Source of the DNA: Bacteroidota bacterium
GTDB taxonomy: Bacteria; Bacteroidota; Bacteroidia; Chitinophagales; Chitinophagaceae
Length of the DNA: 39,243 nucleotides
Reading direction: 5' to 3'
NCBI GenBank assembly: GCA_029560415.1
Contig: JAKQKY010000299.1
Coordinates: 1-39,243, forward strand
Made by a program: the position numbers and the translations under genes. Shown here one piece after another: positions 26,733-38,939 of this stretch (positions are counted from its first letter, which is position 1; the number at the start of each line of letters is the position of its first letter). Below the pieces are notes generated by a model, which did not search any database, had not been told where the DNA came from, and worked only from the letters and a program-made list of their open reading frames with translations.

Positions 26733-27710
26733 TCAGATTGGAATTTCAATAAGTAATTCGCAACCTTTCCCCTTCTGTGAATGAAGGGTGAAGGTTCCTG
26801 AAAAAGATTCAACCCGTTTACGGATATTGTTCAAACCGATACCAGATCTGATGGCAGCAGGATCAAATCCTTTTCCGTTATCGTAGATGCGCATGGCAAC
26901 TGCATTGATCTTATGGTAAATGCTGATCTCTACAATCCTGGCTCTTGAATGCCTCAACACGTTATTTAACTGTTCCTGCATTACCCTGTATAAATTCAAC
27001 TGGATATTACTGTTGATTCCTTTATTGATGTTTTCATCAATATTTACCCTGAACATAAACCGTTCATTAACATTAAAGCTCCTGATCAATTCATGTACTG
27101 CATCGGAGAAAGTTATATTGTCGAAGGAAGCTGGCGACAACCTGTGAGATAATTTGCGTATTTCATCGATTGCTTTATTGATATATTCCATTGATTCCTG
27201 GATATGGATAGATGATTGATTTGCATTTGAATGATTGGTCATCGCAAGACTCAACAACGTACCTGCAAGTATCTGGTTGATGTTATCATGTAATTCCTGC
27301 CCAATGAGGTAACGTTCTTTTTCTTGTGCATTCAGAATGGCTTTTACGATGAGTTGTTCATTTTCCTTATTCTTTTCTTCAGCGAATTTTCGGGCACTGA
27401 TATTGGTATAAAAAATCGAGAGACCCTTTACATTGGGGAATGCCCTTACTTCCAGCCACATGGCATAGGTATCGTAATATATTTCAAAAGAGCGGTCAAC
27501 GCCCAATTCCATCGCCTTCCTGAATTCAGTTTCAAATAAGCCACCTATGATATCGGGGAAAACTTCCCAGATCTCCATCCCGATCAGGTCGTCTTTTTTT
27601 TTATTCATCAAGGAAAGTGCCTTTGTATTCACAAATACATATTTCCAATTACGGTTAAGGTGCACAAAGGCATCTCCCATATTTTGCAATATATATTCCA
27701 ATGCATGCAT
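26733..27710 (-). CDS. Orphan PAS-domain sensor histidine kinase (HisKA_3/NarX type)
   Basis: A 325-residue soluble kinase. One PAS domain occupies residues about 3-110 (LQNMGDAFVHLNRNWKYVFV, IGMEIWEVFPD, IFYTNISARK). The dimerisation/phosphoacceptor region holds His141 in GQELHDNINQIL, the HisKA_3 signature, and the ATPase domain has VMQEQLNNVLRHS (N box), MRIYDNGKGFDP (G1 box) and GIGLNNIRKRVESF. No membrane segment is present, so it should sense a cytoplasmic cue. No response regulator lies next to it; the nearest NarL-type regulators are 5-10 kb away (33078, 36176, 36855). Its upstream region carries TACGG repeats described under findings. Confidence 0.9.
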   Translation of the reverse strand: MHALEYILQNMGDAFVHLNRNWKYVFVNTKALSLMNKKKDDLIGMEIWEVFPDIIGGLFETEFRKAMELGVDRSFEIYYDTYAMWLEVRAFPNVKGLSIFYTNISARKFAEEKNKENEQLIVKAILNAQEKERYLIGQELHDNINQILAGTLLSLAMTNHSNANQSSIHIQESMEYINKAIDEIRKLSHRLSPASFDNITFSDAVHELIRSFNVNERFMFRVNIDENINKGINSNIQLNLYRVMQEQLNNVLRHSRARIVEISIYHKINAVAMRIYDNGKGFDPAAIRSGIGLNNIRKRVESFSGTFTLHSQKGKGCELLIEIPI

Positions 27711-33077: not shown

Positions 33078-33734
33078 TTAGTCGATCAATTGGTTTTTCA
33101 TTGCATAAAAGACCAGTCCAACCGAGTTTTTTACGCCAAACCTTTCCATCAACCTGTCTTTAATTGCCTCCACGGTTCTTGCGCTGATATCCATTTTCAG
33201 GGAGATCTCTGATGCCGTGAATTCCATACAAACCAGGGTGAGTACTTCCTTTTCACGTTCACTCAAAACTATTTCTGAAGTAAGGCTGGGATTGAATTTC
33301 TGTTTGGAGTAATTTTTTTTGATGAGTACTTTATTCACAAAAGGATTCAGATAAAATCCGGTTCTCATCACATCCATGATGGCTTTTTTAATTTCTGCGG
33401 GATCGGTACTTTTTAATAAGTAACCTGCAGCACCACAATCCATCAGGTGACCAACAAAACGTTCGTCCTCATACATAGTTAAAATAATCACCCTGATATT
33501 GGGAAATTTTTTGGTTACCATTTTAGTGGTATCGATGCCATCTTTGACGGGCATTTTCAGATCGCATAAAATAACATCAGGCATTGATTCGGGGATCTTC
33601 TCAAGAAGATCATCTCCATTTTCTGCCTCCATTACGAACTTAATATTCGAATAAGGCCTCATGGAAAGGATAACACCTTTTCTGAAGATCTTATGATCGT
33701 CTGCAATTGCTACTTTAATTTGATTAGATACCAT
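33078..33734 (-). CDS. NarL/LuxR-type response regulator (module 1)
   Basis: A 218-residue two-component regulator. The receiver has Asp12-Asp13, phosphoacceptor Asp58 (ILCDLKMP), Thr/Met in ILTMYED and the switch Lys near 107 (YLLKSTDP). A LuxR-type helix-turn-helix occupies about 150-212 (LSEREKEVLTLVCMEFTASE, ISARTVEAIKDRLMERF). It lies 91 bases downstream of the kinase at 33826 and on the same strand, so that kinase is the probable partner. It resembles the regulator at 36176 closely (both start IK-AIADDHKIFR and end with a M-N-L-I segment). Confidence 0.93.
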   Translation of the reverse strand: MVSNQIKVAIADDHKIFRKGVILSMRPYSNIKFVMEAENGDDLLEKIPESMPDVILCDLKMPVKDGIDTTKMVTKKFPNIRVIILTMYEDERFVGHLMDCGAAGYLLKSTDPAEIKKAIMDVMRTGFYLNPFVNKVLIKKNYSKQKFNPSLTSEIVLSEREKEVLTLVCMEFTASEISLKMDISARTVEAIKDRLMERFGVKNSVGLVFYAMKNQLID

Positions 33735-33774
33735 AGTAAGGACGTAAAAATAGTAACATCTTTAGAATCAGCAT

Positions 33775-33787
33775 CGTAAATTCCGTA
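33775..33787 (-). promoter_or_regulatory. Possible regulator-binding site: TACG repeat upstream of the module 1 regulator
   Basis: On the minus strand TACGGAATTTACG has two TACG half-sites nine bases apart, the same spacing as the TACGGGAAC-TACGG repeat at 27782. It sits 41 bases upstream of the regulator start. Confidence 0.3.
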
Positions 33788-33825
33788 AAACTTATATAAA
33801 CGGCTGTATATCGGGGTAAAAAGAT

Positions 33826-34647
33826 CTAAATAATGTTCTCTTTCGGTATTTCAAGGGTTATTTTATAATAAGTCTGACTGGGATCTATTTCGAAAAATAT
33901 ACGCCCATTAAGTACTTTCATCCTGCTGGCAATGTTTTTGAGTCCCAAACCCTGTGCACTATGGTTTAATTTATCAAATTCAGCCTGTACTATACCTTTG
34001 CCATCGTGGTGTAAACGCAGGTATAGGTTATTTGCATTGGCATTCTGTGTAAGATGTATAAATCCTGCATTGCTGTGTTTGATAATATTATTTACAAGTT
34101 CCTGGATGATTCTGAATACCAACAATTCCTGTTCAACTTTCAGTCTTTCCCGGTAATCATGAAATCTTGCACTTGCGTTCAGGCTGCCGCTCCCGCTGAT
34201 CTTCTGAAACAGGTCAGAAGTTGCACTTTCAAGCCCGAAATTCTTGAGCGTTGGAGGCATAAGGCTATGACTGATATTCCGGATCAGGAGGATAGCGTCA
34301 TCGATGATCTGTTTTGCGCTAAAAATACTTTGAAGTTGCTGGGCTTTTTCCTGGTTCACCAGGTTTTCATTCAGGTATAACCGGGCCGTTGCCAGGAGTG
34401 GGCCAGCATCATCATGCAGATCGGCTGCTATTCGCTGCCGCTCTTCTTCCTGGAACCTGATGGATGCATTTAATAATATCTGTTGCTTCTCCGTTTCGAG
34501 CCTTTTCATTTGAGCCTGGTACCGGATTACTTTTCGTTGATGAAATATCACGAATACAATAATACCGATGGCCAAAATGAGCATTCCCAATGTTCCTATA
34601 AACATCAGCCTCGAAATCCCTGAAGAGTCGGCCTGTAAAAAGTACAT
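33826..34647 (-). CDS. HisKA_3-type sensor histidine kinase (module 1)
   Basis: A 273-residue kinase with one membrane helix (about residues 16-35), a short coiled-coil region (IRYQAQMKRLETEKQQILL), the phosphoacceptor His78 in AADLHDDAGPLL, and a HATPase domain with IIQELVNNIIKHS and LHHDGKGIVQ. There is no periplasmic or PAS-type sensor domain. The gene starts 5 bases after the stop of the polytopic membrane protein at 34653, and the regulator follows 91 bases downstream, forming a membrane protein - kinase - regulator module that is repeated at 36855-38939. Confidence 0.92.
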   Translation of the reverse strand: MYFLQADSSGISRLMFIGTLGMLILAIGIIVFVIFHQRKVIRYQAQMKRLETEKQQILLNASIRFQEEERQRIAADLHDDAGPLLATARLYLNENLVNQEKAQQLQSIFSAKQIIDDAILLIRNISHSLMPPTLKNFGLESATSDLFQKISGSGSLNASARFHDYRERLKVEQELLVFRIIQELVNNIIKHSNAGFIHLTQNANANNLYLRLHHDGKGIVQAEFDKLNHSAQGLGLKNIASRMKVLNGRIFFEIDPSQTYYKITLEIPKENII

Positions 34648-34652
34648 TAAAG

Positions 34653-35285
34653 TTAGTTTAGGTTGTTTTTTGGGTTAAAGCTATCCAGGTTTAATTCATT
34701 AGGGATATTAAAAGATTCTTCATTAGATTCAATTTGCTCGTGTGCTAAAAAAGCAAGACTAAGTAAAATGTTTTTAGAAATGGTAACTATACTATATATA
34801 GTTCTCAATTGCTGAAGAACAATTTTATCCGTCGTAGAATCTATGAATAATAAATAGAAAAAATTTCCTGTAAAATATAAGAAAAGACCCACACAAATCC
34901 AAAATGTTATACTTTGATAAAGAGGATTTACTACCTCAGTTTTCATTTTTTCATAGAAAAAATAAATTATAAATACAATAAATGCTAGGAATTCGGTTAG
35001 CAAAGGATAGCTACTAAATTTTGAACCATTCGACATGTAATTCAAAATACAAAATATCACAAATGGAATAATTGAGTATAAGACTATCTTTTTGGCTAGT
35101 TTATTTTTATAAAGTTGATTTAAGAAAATCGCGAATAAAACATACTCAACTATAGTATAAACTCGAATAACGTTAAAGTAAAGCGGCTTTGATTTTAAAA
35201 TATTAATTGCAATTATGTTCAATAATACGAATAAAGAAAGCAAGATAGTATAAATAAAAAATACCTTTAATCCTCTTGTATTCAA
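34653..35285 (-). CDS. Polytopic membrane protein, putative detached sensor subunit (module 1)
   Basis: A 210-residue protein from a TTG at 35285, with six predicted helices (about residues 7-28, 36-58, 66-85, 92-111, 124-148 and 160-183) and a soluble tail rich in Asn/Glu. The frame stays open for 28 codons upstream to 35369 and encodes one more hydrophobic helix (ITNFFEVIPLIFCIFFY), which aligns with helix 1 of the counterpart at 38271, so the true protein is probably a seven-helix one with a non-standard start. The sequence is very AT-rich. The motif SITFWICVGLF matches PSFWIVTGVFF of the counterpart. Function unknown; it may be the sensor for the adjacent kinase (inference). The kinase starts 5 bases after its stop. 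Confidence 0.8.
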   Translation of the reverse strand: MNTRGLKVFFIYTILLSLFVLLNIIAINILKSKPLYFNVIRVYTIVEYVLFAIFLNQLYKNKLAKKIVLYSIIPFVIFCILNYMSNGSKFSSYPLLTEFLAFIVFIIYFFYEKMKTEVVNPLYQSITFWICVGLFLYFTGNFFYLLFIDSTTDKIVLQQLRTIYSIVTISKNILLSLAFLAHEQIESNEESFNIPNELNLDSFNPKNNLN

Positions 35286-35380
35286 TTTTTTATAAAAGAA
35301 AATACAAAAGATTAAAGGTATAACTTCAAAAAAGTTTGTAATGTAAGTTAAATTTTTCAGCAGTATCAGTTAATTGAGTT

Positions 35381-35388
35381 CAAATATA
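35381..35388 (-). promoter_or_regulatory. -7 element just upstream of the module 1 membrane protein
   Basis: TATATTTG on the minus strand is an exact TAnnTTTG. A transcript start about 7 bases downstream (near 35374) would fall at the beginning of the extended reading frame (35369), so the mRNA could be nearly leaderless. No clear -33 TTG is seen. Confidence 0.4.
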
Positions 35389-35440
35389 ATGAAATCAAAT
35401 AAATTACCGCTTTAAATTTACTTAGTCATTGCAGAATAAT

Positions 35441-35454
35441 GATACCAAAGTATC
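35441..35454. repeat. Inverted repeat GATAC-N4-GTATC
   Basis: Five-base arms GATAC (35441-35445) and GTATC (35450-35454), first of the palindrome cluster. Confidence 0.4.
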
Positions 35455-35558
35455 GTTTCCAAGTGATCCTAACATTTTAAAATAATTTAGTGGTTTATGA
35501 TTAATTGCAACGTAAACTTCTATCAATTCAATTTTTCACACAAGAGACAATGTTGTTT

Positions 35559-35572
35559 ACGTATTAGTACGA
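35559..35572. repeat. Near-palindrome ACGTATTAGTACGA
   Basis: It matches 12 of 14 bases of the perfect palindrome at 35697-35710, so the two look like copies of one binding site. Confidence 0.45.
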
Positions 35573-35659
35573 TACTGATCTAACTCAATCCTGTATTGCT
35601 TTTTACAGGAATAAACGGCCAAAAATGCTTTAAAAATTAAGGTAAATGTACGAAAACGA

Positions 35660-35677
35660 AATAGTAATTTTACTATT
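35660..35677. repeat. Perfect inverted repeat AATAGTAA-TT-TTACTATT
   Basis: Eight-base arms separated by two bases, located 20 bases left of the nested palindrome at 35681-35733. Confidence 0.5.
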
Positions 35678-35680
35678 AAT

Positions 35681-35733
35681 TTTTTGTAGCTTTACCTCGT
35701 ATTAATACGAATTGCTTTAAAAAACTACAAAAA
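35681..35733. promoter_or_regulatory. Nested palindrome centred on TCGTATTAATACGA
   Basis: The central 14-base perfect palindrome lies at 35697-35710. It is flanked by a second pair of perfect nine-base arms, TTTTTGTAG (35681-35689) and CTACAAAAA (35725-35733), giving a structure of 53 bases. A GCTTTA direct repeat sits inside (35689-35694 and 35714-35719). It ends at the ATG of the possible remnant, so it may be its operator or leader. Confidence 0.5.
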
Positions 35734-36046
35734 TGAGCGAATTGGAATACCTAAATATCAATGCCATTTTCCATATCTAAATGGTTTTTAATGAATTAGG
35801 GAAGATGTAACTAGGATTGAATGTCGGAATTTGGATTAAGCACTGTTCCCTGGTTTTGCATGGATAGCTTTCATTACAACCCGTTGGGCATTAAGCTTAG
35901 GAGATAATACCAACAACGATACATTTAAACTTGCATAAGTAATTGCAACAAAAGCTATTATGTTTAAGGCGGGCGATTGGGTAGATTTAAGGTTAAAAGG
36001 GAAACAATCCAAATTTTGGAGATCTACTGAATCGTATTTTTACTAA
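35733..36046 (+). pseudogene. Possible decayed short coding sequence
   Basis: From ATG 35733 the frame reads MSELEYLNINAIFHI then stops, resumes as MVFNELGKM, stops again and continues to about 35840. There the better frame shifts to one that is open from 35840 to 36046 apart from a single TAA at 35936-35938, with protein-like content (WIAFITTRWALSLGDNTNND, then FKAGDWVDLRLKGKQSKFW). Three stops and one frameshift in ~310 bases would be a broken gene. I recognise no family, and AT-rich noncoding DNA can look like this by chance. Confidence 0.25.
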
Positions 36047-36175
36047 GTAGATTTTCAAAAAACATTTGAAAACCAATCGTATATTTTATATAAGCTGTAT
36101 TTTTTACATACTAAATTGCTTAAATTACAAACGAAACCAAGAAAAAAATACTAACCCCACCAATTAACTGAAACA

Positions 36176-36841
36176 ATGTCTGCTGAAAATCAAATCAAGA
36201 TTGCCATTGCCGATGATCATAAAATATTCCGGGATGGTATTAAAATGGCCCTATCTGGCAAGACTAACCTGAAAATGCTATGGGAAGCAGAAGACGGGAA
36301 AGATATGATGCACAAAATTGCGATCAAAAAGCCAGAAGTTCTGTTAATGGATATCAGGATGCCAGAAATTGATGGCATTAATGGTATTCAGCTTATCCGA
36401 AAGGAATTTGAGGATATCAAGATCATTGTACTTACCATGTACGACGATCAGCAAATGATCAGCAAAATGATGGAAATGGGCGCCAATGCCTATCTCACTA
36501 AAACAACCGATCCCGAAGAAATTTATGAGGCCATCCTCACCTGTATGAATGATGATTTTTATTTCAATGAATTGGTCAATAAAGCCGTGATGGGGAAATT
36601 AATGCAGAAAAAAAATGTTCGGCAACATTATGGCACCAATACTCCAGTTAATTTCAATGAAAAGGAGATAAAGATCCTTCAATTATTGTCGGAAGACAAA
36701 ACAACTGAAGAAATATCCAAGATCATCTTCCTTAGTCCACGTACAATTGAGACCATCCGCCAGAATATGAAGACCAAAGTAAATGCTAAAACGATCGGTG
36801 GATTGATCATGTATGGCATGAGAAATAAATTGATCGAGTAA
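36176..36841 (+). CDS. NarL/LuxR-type response regulator, divergent, between the two modules
   Basis: A 221-residue regulator. The receiver has Asp13-Asp14, phosphoacceptor Asp59 (LLMDIRMP), ILTMYDD (written VLTMYDD here) and the switch Lys in YLTKTTDP. The C-terminal LuxR helix-turn-helix (FNEKEIKILQLLSEDKTTEE, LSPRTIETIRQNMKTKV) follows. It has no kinase next to it on its own strand, and it converges on the module 2 regulator with only 13 bases between stops. It resembles the module 1 regulator (33078) more than the module 2 regulator, so it may be a duplicate of the former that also serves one of the two kinases (inference). Confidence 0.93.
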   Translation: MSAENQIKIAIADDHKIFRDGIKMALSGKTNLKMLWEAEDGKDMMHKIAIKKPEVLLMDIRMPEIDGINGIQLIRKEFEDIKIIVLTMYDDQQMISKMMEMGANAYLTKTTDPEEIYEAILTCMNDDFYFNELVNKAVMGKLMQKKNVRQHYGTNTPVNFNEKEIKILQLLSEDKTTEEISKIIFLSPRTIETIRQNMKTKVNAKTIGGLIMYGMRNKLIE

Positions 36842-36854
36842 TAATATATCTCTA

Positions 36855-37517
36855 CTAAAACGTTACGATCCCGTTTTTTACTGCATAAATGGCAAGGCCT
36901 ACCCTGCTCTTCACATCTAACTTATCAAAAAGGCTGTCCCTGTAACTGTCGATTGACCGGGGGGTGATCTTCATGGCATGAGCGATTTCCTTATAGGTCA
37001 AATCAGTACTTGCCAGTTTAAGAAATTCAATTTCTATTTCCGAAAGCATGGCATTTTCCAGAGAAAACGGGCGGGCATTGTTTTTCTGAAATAATGAAGC
37101 GAGCTTACCGGTAGTATCCTGCGCATAATAATATCCATTCTCGGCAACCGCCAGTAAAGCTGCCTTTAACTCAGTTGGATGGATGTCCTTTTTAAGAAAA
37201 CCTTTAACACCAACCTGTAAAAGCCTGATCAGGGCAATTTCTGAATCATACATGGTAAGGATCAGTGTTTTCACTGTGGGATGTTTTCTATAAAGCCAAT
37301 GAGCGGTTTCATAGCCATCCATCCTGGGCATATTCAGGTCGAGCAACACAATATGCGGAACATGTCCTGCTTCAACAGCGGCAACCAATTCTTTTCCATC
37401 ACCTGCTACCGAAATGACCTCAAATTCATCAAATGAATTGATCAAACGGGCCAATGCATCCCTCAATAAAATATGATCATCTGCCAGGATCACCTTAAAC
37501 TTCTTGTTGCTTTTCAT
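36855..37517 (-). CDS. NarL/LuxR-type response regulator (module 2)
   Basis: A 220-residue regulator with Asp13-Asp14, phosphoacceptor Asp60 (VLLDLNMP), LILTMYDSE, switch Lys in GFLKKDIHP and a LuxR-type helix-turn-helix (LSEIEIEFLKLASTDLTYKE, ITPRSIDSYRDSLFDKL). Its start overlaps the end of the kinase gene by 23 bases (37495-37517), which points to translational coupling and a cognate pair. The receiver differs clearly from those of 33078 and 36176. Confidence 0.93.
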   Translation of the reverse strand: MKSNKKFKVILADDHILLRDALARLINSFDEFEVISVAGDGKELVAAVEAGHVPHIVLLDLNMPRMDGYETAHWLYRKHPTVKTLILTMYDSEIALIRLLQVGVKGFLKKDIHPTELKAALLAVAENGYYYAQDTTGKLASLFQKNNARPFSLENAMLSEIEIEFLKLASTDLTYKEIAHAMKITPRSIDSYRDSLFDKLDVKSRVGLAIYAVKNGIVTF

Positions 37518-38295
37518 AAAGTGGTATTTCTATTTTGATGGTTGTTCCTTCTTTTGGTTCAGAAATGACATGGCATACCCCCTGCAACATGTTTGCCCGC
37601 CGGCTCATATTCGCAAATCCATTCCCCCTTTTAATATTTGCTCCCTCCACCATTCCGATGCCGTTGTCGCAAATTTCCAATACCAGTTCCGAACTGCAAT
37701 AATGCAACCTGATATGTATTTGGGTAGCTTCTGCATGTTTCACAATATTGTTCAATGCTTCCTGAACGATCCTGAACAACAATAATTCTTTCTGAGCTTC
37801 CATAAAAATGCTATCACCCGTAACCGATAGCTTGATATTGTATAGCCGTGTTTTATTCAGTTGGTTAACTTCAAATTCAAGTGCTTTGATAAACCCGTTG
37901 TTTAAAATAATCTCCGAACTCAGGCTCCTGCTGATGTCGCTCAGGTCGTTGATGGTTTCACCAATCATTTTTACAGAGTCCTGGATTTGCAGCAGGGCAT
38001 TTGCAGCATCCTCCATATCAAGGGTATTCAGGTGTAATTTGGCAAGGGTTAACTTCTGGCCAATATTATCATGTATTTCCTGGGAAATATTCTGAAAGGT
38101 TTGTTCCTGTATTTCAAGTTGTGATTGCAACATGGCATTTTCATGACTTGCTTTCAATTCTTCCATGTTTTTAAAAAAAACATTCTGCTTTTGTTGATAC
38201 CTATAAATAATAAAAGCAATGAAAGATATTAATAATGATATCAATAGAGTACACAGTATAATAAATATAATTACTGCCTTTGTTGAATTGAACAT
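37495..38295 (-). CDS. HisKA_3-type sensor histidine kinase (module 2)
   Basis: A 266-residue kinase with one long membrane helix (residues 8-31), a coiled-coil (VFFKNMEELKASHENAMLQS), phosphoacceptor His75 in SQEIHDNIGQKLTL, and an ATPase domain with IVQEALNNIVKHAEA, LEICDNGIGM and GNGFANMSRRANML. It has no extra sensor domain. It overlaps the membrane protein gene upstream by 25 bases and the regulator downstream by 23 bases, so the three are one tightly coupled unit. Confidence 0.93.
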   Translation of the reverse strand: MFNSTKAVIIFIILCTLLISLLISFIAFIIYRYQQKQNVFFKNMEELKASHENAMLQSQLEIQEQTFQNISQEIHDNIGQKLTLAKLHLNTLDMEDAANALLQIQDSVKMIGETINDLSDISRSLSSEIILNNGFIKALEFEVNQLNKTRLYNIKLSVTGDSIFMEAQKELLLFRIVQEALNNIVKHAEATQIHIRLHYCSSELVLEICDNGIGMVEGANIKRGNGFANMSRRANMLQGVCHVISEPKEGTTIKIEIPLYEKQQEV

Positions 38296-38939
38296 AAAAA
38301 AGCTTTTATAAAAAAAACATGCATAACTAAATAAGAGAAAGTCGCTATATCATGAATTATAATAAGATTAAATTCAGATATTTTATTTTTTAGATATCCA
38401 ATCATTGCTGATGATGGTACGATTATACTCATACAAAAAAAAACACCAGTTACAATCCAAAATGATGGCTCTTTTCTTAAGTTCAGAATTGGTAGATTAT
38501 TAAAAAGTTGGTAATAATAAATTAAGCACAAAATCGACAATCCAAATCCACTTAAAGAAAATGCTTGATAGACGTGCTTTTCAAGATTATGAGTAACTAG
38601 TAAGTATATAATTAAAATTAGAATGACTATTAAAAAAAAGTTGACTTGGCGAATTTCTTCTCTTTTAGGAGTGATTTTTATTATAAAAACACTAAGAAAT
38701 GAATAATGAAAGATTAATGAAAGATTATTAATAACAGTAGCAAAAGTGAAATTGTCAAATAAGTGTGATTTGATAAAATTATTTATAATAACTATCATAC
38801 AAACTATTGAATACCAAAAAAAACCCTTCATATAATTTGGAATACTATCATTCTTTATTAAACGTATTGATAATAGAAATGAGATCAAACCTGCAATACA
38901 TTGCAAGTCAAACAATATATAATCGATCGTCTTTCCCAT
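38271..38939 (-). CDS. Seven-helix membrane protein, putative detached sensor subunit (module 2)
   Basis: A 222-residue protein from the ATG at 38939 (MGKTIDYILF); an in-frame TTG two codons upstream (38945) is less likely. Seven predicted helices span about residues 6-27, 39-57, 67-88, 100-116, 125-146, 160-183 and 192-216, with short loops and almost no soluble domain. NLRKEPSFWIVTGVFF resembles the PLYQSITFWICVGLF segment of the module 1 protein. The sequence is strongly AT-rich. The gene overlaps the kinase by 25 bases. I recognise no named family; the position and topology suggest a sensor or signal-transducing partner of the kinase. Confidence 0.82.
   Translation of the reverse strand: MGKTIDYILFDLQCIAGLISFLLSIRLIKNDSIPNYMKGFFWYSIVCMIVIINNFIKSHLFDNFTFATVINNLSLIFHYSFLSVFIIKITPKREEIRQVNFFLIVILILIIYLLVTHNLEKHVYQAFSLSGFGLSILCLIYYYQLFNNLPILNLRKEPSFWIVTGVFFCMSIIVPSSAMIGYLKNKISEFNLIIIHDIATFSYLVMHVFFIKAFLCSIQQRQ

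Follow-up and report, generated by a model that had tools for sequence, protein, structure and literature searches.

Signalling systems in which a separate membrane protein accompanies the histidine kinase are already known, among them UhpC-UhpB-UhpA of Escherichia coli and LiaF-LiaS-LiaR, the regulators of which (UhpA and LiaR) are both of the NarL type, and the sensory rhodopsin-transducer pair also works in trans. Here, we describe a locus on a 39,243-nucleotide stretch of DNA from a Bacteroidota bacterium of the family Chitinophagaceae (contig JAKQKY010000299.1; ‘the window’ below means this whole stretch), where positions 33078-38939 hold two minus-strand units of the same gene order, each encoding a polytopic membrane protein (M), then a HisKA_3 histidine kinase (K), then a NarL-type response regulator (R). 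We consider it likely that each of these modules is a three-part signalling system in which M, as a split-off seven-transmembrane (7TM) receptor, acts via K on R; the new part, relative to the split systems already described, is a 7TM partner family without a library entry.

As described in PMC7607045, UhpC is a member of the major facilitator superfamily (MFS) that senses outside glucose 6-phosphate and stimulates UhpB, a protein with eight predicted transmembrane (TM) helices. This system resembles the present locus in having a separate polytopic membrane sensor and a kinase, UhpB, that is related to the kinases of both modules (K1 and K2), and differs from it in combining an MFS protein with an eight-helix kinase, whereas here a 7TM M stands beside a one-helix K; a UhpABC-like three-component layout, in which the membrane protein would control the kinase, is suggested here by the adjacency of the M and K genes. 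LiaF-LiaS-LiaR offers a second likeness, that of an accessory protein with a LiaS-like kinase, but LiaF is described as a negative regulator in PMC3543457, and M is a 7TM bundle without a family match. Seven-helix regions of signalling proteins occur in the same phylum in 7TMR-DISM and HisKA_7TM receptors, where they lie inside a long chain (frames mostly of 450-1,700 aa), whereas M is split from K. G protein-coupled receptors (GPCRs), microbial rhodopsins and sensory rhodopsin with its transducer share the 7TM arrangement of M, although no sequence relation to them was found and Pfam scans returned no microbial rhodopsin family. The preliminary description of the locus, made from the sequence alone, had named no described system of this kind, and we likewise found none in the open-access literature among the matches listed, nor any family in Pfam or NCBIfam.

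Pairing of M with kinases across genomes

Module 1 comprises M1 (34653-35360, counted from the putative start discussed below), K1 (33826-34647) and R1 (33078-33734), and module 2 comprises M2 (38271-38939, with an ATG start), K2 (37495-38295) and R2 (36855-37517), all on the minus strand and with M and K as separate frames. The genes of module 2 overlap, M2 and K2 by 25 bases (38271-38295) and K2 and R2 by 23 bases (37495-37517), and between the modules a third NarL-type response regulator, R3 (36176-36841), lies on the plus strand and is kept beside them in relatives. The computed gene order, strands and coordinates reproduce those of the preliminary description in full, including both overlaps and the third regulator facing the other way.

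Conservation of the M-K pairing was computed from 418 distinct M genes, found with M profiles and not with K, in loci from genus relatives, the family, the class and the phylum, duplicates being dropped by a 40-residue window. Eighteen with less than 450 bases downstream were dropped, leaving 400 for which the next downstream neighbour was counted on the same strand and within 600 bases. That neighbour is an open reading frame matching the K profile in 345 of the 400, another M in 41 and neither in 14. The possibility, raised in the preliminary description, that homologues of M sit mostly away from kinases runs against these counts, a kinase of any class coming next in 349. In all 345 pairs, no more than 296 bases separate the end of M from the opening of the K frame; the distance is 100 bases or less in 337, and in 282 the K frame is open before M has ended. 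R follows K in 109 of the 128 pairs with room for it. In a direction control on a set of 298 M genes, K lay directly upstream of M in 1 of 280. Four of the 14 exceptions (L161, L380, L384 and L389) have a HisKA-class kinase directly after M, and in two (L432 and L435) another M, itself followed by K, comes after a gap of more than 600 bases.

In the genome from which the window derives, 30 of the 31 HisKA_3 loci were read, and all three HisKA_3 kinases shorter than 300 aa have an M upstream; at the other 27 loci the upstream gene was in view in only four, none of them an M, and out of view in 23. Searches that scored at most 15 of 35 candidates listed four M matches in this genome, of which two lie in the window, a third accompanies the remaining short kinase and the fourth stands at a contig end without a HisKA_3 kinase, so that none of those listed adjoins the other 27 loci.

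The kinases that follow M, typically short and sensorless, belong to several classes (HisKA_3, PAS-HisKA_3, HisKA, hybrid HisKA with receivers, and His_kinase), and in places two to four different M genes stand in tandem, usually ahead of a single kinase (L423-L440). Because its partner kinases differ in class, and because M genes stand in tandem before one kinase, these data suggest that M is an input module. The 18 likely-array regions were picked out of lists of matches, and 16 belong to the family of genome G263; one of the 18, L427, consists of two M-K pairs in succession, and arrays are sometimes incomplete, with L428, L437 and L177 showing M without a kinase in reach. M genes before kinases of the hybrid HisKA, HisKA and His_kinase classes were noted at L380, L384, L389, L161, L097, L117 and L165. 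It is hardly credible that M and K are co-inherited neighbours with no joint function: such a reading would accommodate a coupling analysis (below) that is no more than suggestive of direct M-K interaction, yet the pairing persists across kinase classes and throughout a diverse family in which column identity averages 19%, and relatives have either all of module 2 or none of it.

With a profile of 46 M proteins, M was found in 77 of 395 genomes across the phylum, while a profile of 125 detected it in 126 of 395 genomes sampled across the class, 172 of 194 from the window's own family, and 105 of 149, 78 of 151 and 12 of 35 from three other families of the class; all these counts are lower bounds, as no more than 7 to 53 candidates were scored in each genome. 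When named genomes were scanned with 12 M1 orthologues, 38 loci were obtained, none clearly outside the phylum; one of them, L225, carries an alphaproteobacterial label and is a short fragment of a metagenome-assembled genome, perhaps mis-binned. Short sensorless histidine kinases are hard to annotate, and if M is their receptor, a signalling family becomes visible in two bacterial families, where 172 of 194 and 105 of 149 of the genomes sampled have it.

The seven-helix fold of M

The frame of M1 is open up to 35369, and the N-terminal residues added by this extension are conserved in an alignment of relatives. Read from a TTG at 35285, M1 has six helices; modelled from 35369 with AlphaFold2 and an alignment of 46 M proteins, it has seven TM helices (predicted local distance difference test, pLDDT, 92.5; predicted template modelling score, pTM, 0.85), as does the model of M2, made with 32 sequences (pLDDT 93.6, pTM 0.90). 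The shared seven-helix layout put forward in the preliminary description thus stands for M2 and for the extended M1 and falls for M1 as it was drawn there. Its shared P/S-x-FWI-x-x-G-x-F segment fares similarly, FWI-x-x-G-x-F being exact in both proteins (FWICVGLF and FWIVTGVF) and the leading P/S-x- present only in M2.

GPCRs and rhodopsins predominate among the Protein Data Bank (PDB) matches listed for the two models, which also include a few designed or other helical proteins. The best Foldseek E-values are 0.17 for M1 and 0.024 for M2, none reaching 0.001, with top TM-scores near 0.5, while the best VIA-align matches, which take in all helices, have a Z of 13.8 for M1 (root-mean-square deviation 4.1, 204 aligned) and 14.9 for M2 (4.3, 211 aligned), values of a size that helical bundles can reach through arrangement alone. 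The top VIA-align match of both models is the GPCR-like cholesterol sensor LYCHOS. A sequence search of the PDB with M returned nothing below E 0.35. As modelled, then, the helices of M share the arrangement and orientation seen in GPCRs and rhodopsins, a likeness that is no proof of common descent. Lys and Arg make up 0.14-0.30 of the residues in the inner loops and C-terminus and 0.06-0.10 of those in the outer loops, and because they are enriched in the loops placed inside, the N-terminus of M is probably outside and its C-terminus inside.

Neither M1 nor M2 matches a Pfam or NCBIfam family above cut-off. The 7TMR-DISM_7TM profile (PF07695) met 1 of 46 M proteins, and only at E 0.9, and HisKA_7TM (PF16927) is absent from the 17 Pfam families listed for these 46; membership of either was rejected, with hhalign probabilities, obtained without a positive control, of 2.3% and 6%, respectively. 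A retinal protein was also considered and set aside, since a TM7 Lys is kept in M1 alignments and not across paralogues, and Pfam scans gave no rhodopsin family.

Conserved charged residues inside the bundle bear on another role for M, that of a membrane enzyme or small transporter, with K reading its activity or the load of its substrate, in the manner of UhpC for UhpB. Both kinases have UhpB among their closest matches in NCBIfam, the MFS protein UhpC provides a precedent (PMC7607045), and some of the structural matches of M are rhodopsin proton pumps; the structural matches listed are, however, mostly receptors, and M has no match above cut-off among the transporter or enzyme families of Pfam and NCBIfam, so that we regard this role as very unlikely. 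For M as a receptor, the inner charged residues and a weak inward rise in conservation would fit a binding site with a shared output side, without proving one.

Kinases, regulators and contact in the membrane

Both K1 and K2 pass the Pfam cut-offs for HisKA_3 followed by HATPase_c, have no sensor family above cut-off in Pfam and, by eye, carry one N-terminal hydrophobic helix each, and R1, R2 and R3 each consist of a receiver (Response_reg) and a GerE domain in Pfam; the sensorless, single-helix kinases and NarL-type regulators of the preliminary description are thereby borne out. The histidine boxes of the two kinases differ, that of K1 being HDDAGP and that of K2 HDNIGQ. HDD[AV]GP is found in all 34 K1 orthologues of the pair set, Pro replacing the Gln of the phosphatase motif, while among the 23 K2 orthologues HDN[IV]GQ is found in 20 and HDSIGQ in 1, the Gln being kept in 21. 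According to PMC3510030, the Gln of the DxxxQ motif is needed for the phosphatase activity of NarX, and because Pro takes its place, K1 may lack phosphatase activity.

By analogy with UhpC, which senses and stimulates UhpB, M most likely serves as receptor, K as its membrane-bound output and R as transcription factor. A 7TM receptor with its N-terminus outside and its C-terminus inside would bind a small molecule, a lipid or an ion in its helix bundle and would pass the change laterally, through contact in the membrane, to the one TM helix of K and its coiled coil; K would in turn phosphorylate the adjoining R, a NarL-type transcription factor. It is probable that the seven-helix protein and the kinase together form a single split receptor, and such a split would allow each to be examined separately.

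The kinases also have features that would suit a different division of labour, in which K senses the membrane through its own helix and M is an accessory regulator, similar to LiaF, that holds K off or stabilises it. K retains its own TM helix and coiled coil, and the NCBIfam matches of K1 and K2 include LiaS, the partner of which, LiaF, is described as a separate accessory protein and negative regulator (PMC3543457). M is, by contrast, a full 7TM bundle, and a diverse one, and tandem arrays of different M genes before one kinase suit changing inputs better than a fixed inhibitor; we therefore judge the accessory role improbable.

Contact between M and K was approached by mean-field coupling analysis, first of 239 M-K pairs and then of 322 (effective numbers 156 and 211), the larger set being what was kept of the 345 pairs after partial M proteins, short or weak K proteins and K proteins without a clear histidine box had been dropped. 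The strongest M-K coupling joins TM1 of M to the inner membrane edge of K and ranks third of all couplings with 239 pairs and tenth with 322, whereas the best inter-protein coupling in two shuffled pairings, which also lose shared ancestry, ranks 183rd and 192nd.

Several results weigh against a receptor that touches its kinase in the membrane. The z of the top M-K coupling is 7.5 against 6.6 and 6.7 in the two shuffles, and of the 100 highest inter-protein couplings 30 involve columns of the K TM helix, compared with 21 and 16 in the shuffles, a weak excess. Several strong couplings link the last part of M with the first part of K; they are expected from the overlap of the reading frames there and were set aside. 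Overall, the coevolution is suggestive of M-K contact and is no proof of it. No M-K fusion was seen among the matches listed, the longest M open frame being 335 aa. Conservation of M climbs only weakly towards the inner face of the bundle (Spearman 0.18, p = 0.02), and a comparison of its inner and outer thirds gives p = 0.06. Finally, eight M genes have no kinase nearby (L138, L170, L177, L225, L279, L366, L428 and L437), although L225 is fragmentary, and at L177, L428 and L437 the gene closes an array.

Start of M1, module history and surroundings

Of 49 M1 orthologues, all except one truncated at its start were aligned on a Glu common to the remaining 48, none of which has an ATG between the upstream stop and TM1. 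ATG, GTG and TTG are all lacking from this stretch in 38 of the 48, whereas among the 351 other M genes an ATG is present in 252 and only 19 have none of the three. A start-like codon nevertheless stands at one place in all 48, at codon -11 or -12: codon -11 is CTG in 20 and TTG in 2, and codon -12 is ATT, ATC or ATA in 31, five of which also have the CTG. The place was spotted by eye and tested afterwards. The same count at 25 other offsets runs from 0 to 40, and because the 40 and a 37 are reached at places rich in Ile codons, the Ile part of the signal is not special by itself. CTG alone, on the other hand, occurs at most 4 times at any control offset, and whereas it makes up 6.6% of the Leu codons further downstream, it supplies 20 of the 29 at -11 (binomial p 1.2e-17, uncorrected for the kinship of the orthologues or for the choice of place). 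The second codon position is conserved from -10 on, with a pairwise difference rate of 0.27 against 0.53 at the third, and is not conserved upstream of -10, where the rates are 0.60 and 0.64. A motif of the form of the Bacteroidota -7 promoter element, TAnnTTTG, lies 12-25 nt upstream of codon -11 in 40 of the 48; in the window, TATATTTG (35381-35388, minus strand) resembles it.

These patterns make it likely that M1 initiates at CUG or at AUU, AUC or AUA, with a short leader, although in the Ile group codon -12 could also be an ordinary Ile codon. In the window, M1 probably starts at the CTG at 35360-35358, in place of the TTG at 35285 drawn earlier. A programmed frameshift into M1 was considered and rejected, the spacing from an upstream TTG varying in phase among orthologues by eye. 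Among the matches listed in the open-access literature, there were no reports of non-AUG starts on such genes in this phylum. A conserved non-AUG start in the M1 clade makes near-cognate initiation testable as a natural throttle. We tentatively propose, in a wider picture that is plausible without being our firm expectation, that Bacteroidota have receptors of GPCR topology detached from their effectors, in which M would act in trans on a minimal membrane kinase, arrays of two to four different receptors would in some genomes feed one kinase and be swapped or combined without a change of kinase, and the near-cognate start of the M1 clade (CUG or AUU/AUC/AUA) would keep the receptor scarce relative to the kinase. 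If so, bacteria would provide an example of combinatorial receptors in the tandem arrays that precede a single kinase.

The preliminary description had called the two modules duplicated, a view that comparison of their parts does not support. M1 and M2 give no significant blastp match to each other, K1 and K2 are 28% identical, R1 is nearer to R3 (39%) than to R2 (32%), and K1 orthologues and K2 orthologues form no joint clade when 322 kinases are placed on a midpoint-rooted FastTree tree. The non-match of M1 and M2, the low identity of K1 and K2 and their separate places on the tree rule out a recent tandem duplication of the module.

Relatives have a fourth NarL-type regulator just beyond M2 (L057:8597-9289 and equivalents), which the contig in the window ends too soon to show. 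At 18 relative loci with R3 and this fourth regulator both in view in the usual order, M2-K2-R2 is, by eye, whole in 10 (M1 being out of view in one of these) and wholly absent in 8; L060, with another gene in place, and L083, which is rearranged, are left out of the count. At L060 (6229-9075), a large protein with what by eye are PKD-like repeats occupies the site of module 2, and at L077 (7474-8091) an extra M2-like gene lies directly upstream of M2. At L090 (G000, contig C311), an R3-like regulator has beside it a second M2-like gene, which is truncated by the end of the contig and shows 43% identity over 144 residues; this gene may come from another strain, the assembly being listed at 7.3% contamination.

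The neighbours of the modules in one relative (L057) are housekeeping genes, for a tRNA synthetase, a deoxynucleoside kinase, an aminotransferase, a photolyase and menaquinone biosynthesis, and for this reason no output of the modules was read from their context. Elsewhere in the window, at 26733-27710, a PAS and HisKA_3 kinase without an M adjoins an acyltransferase gene.

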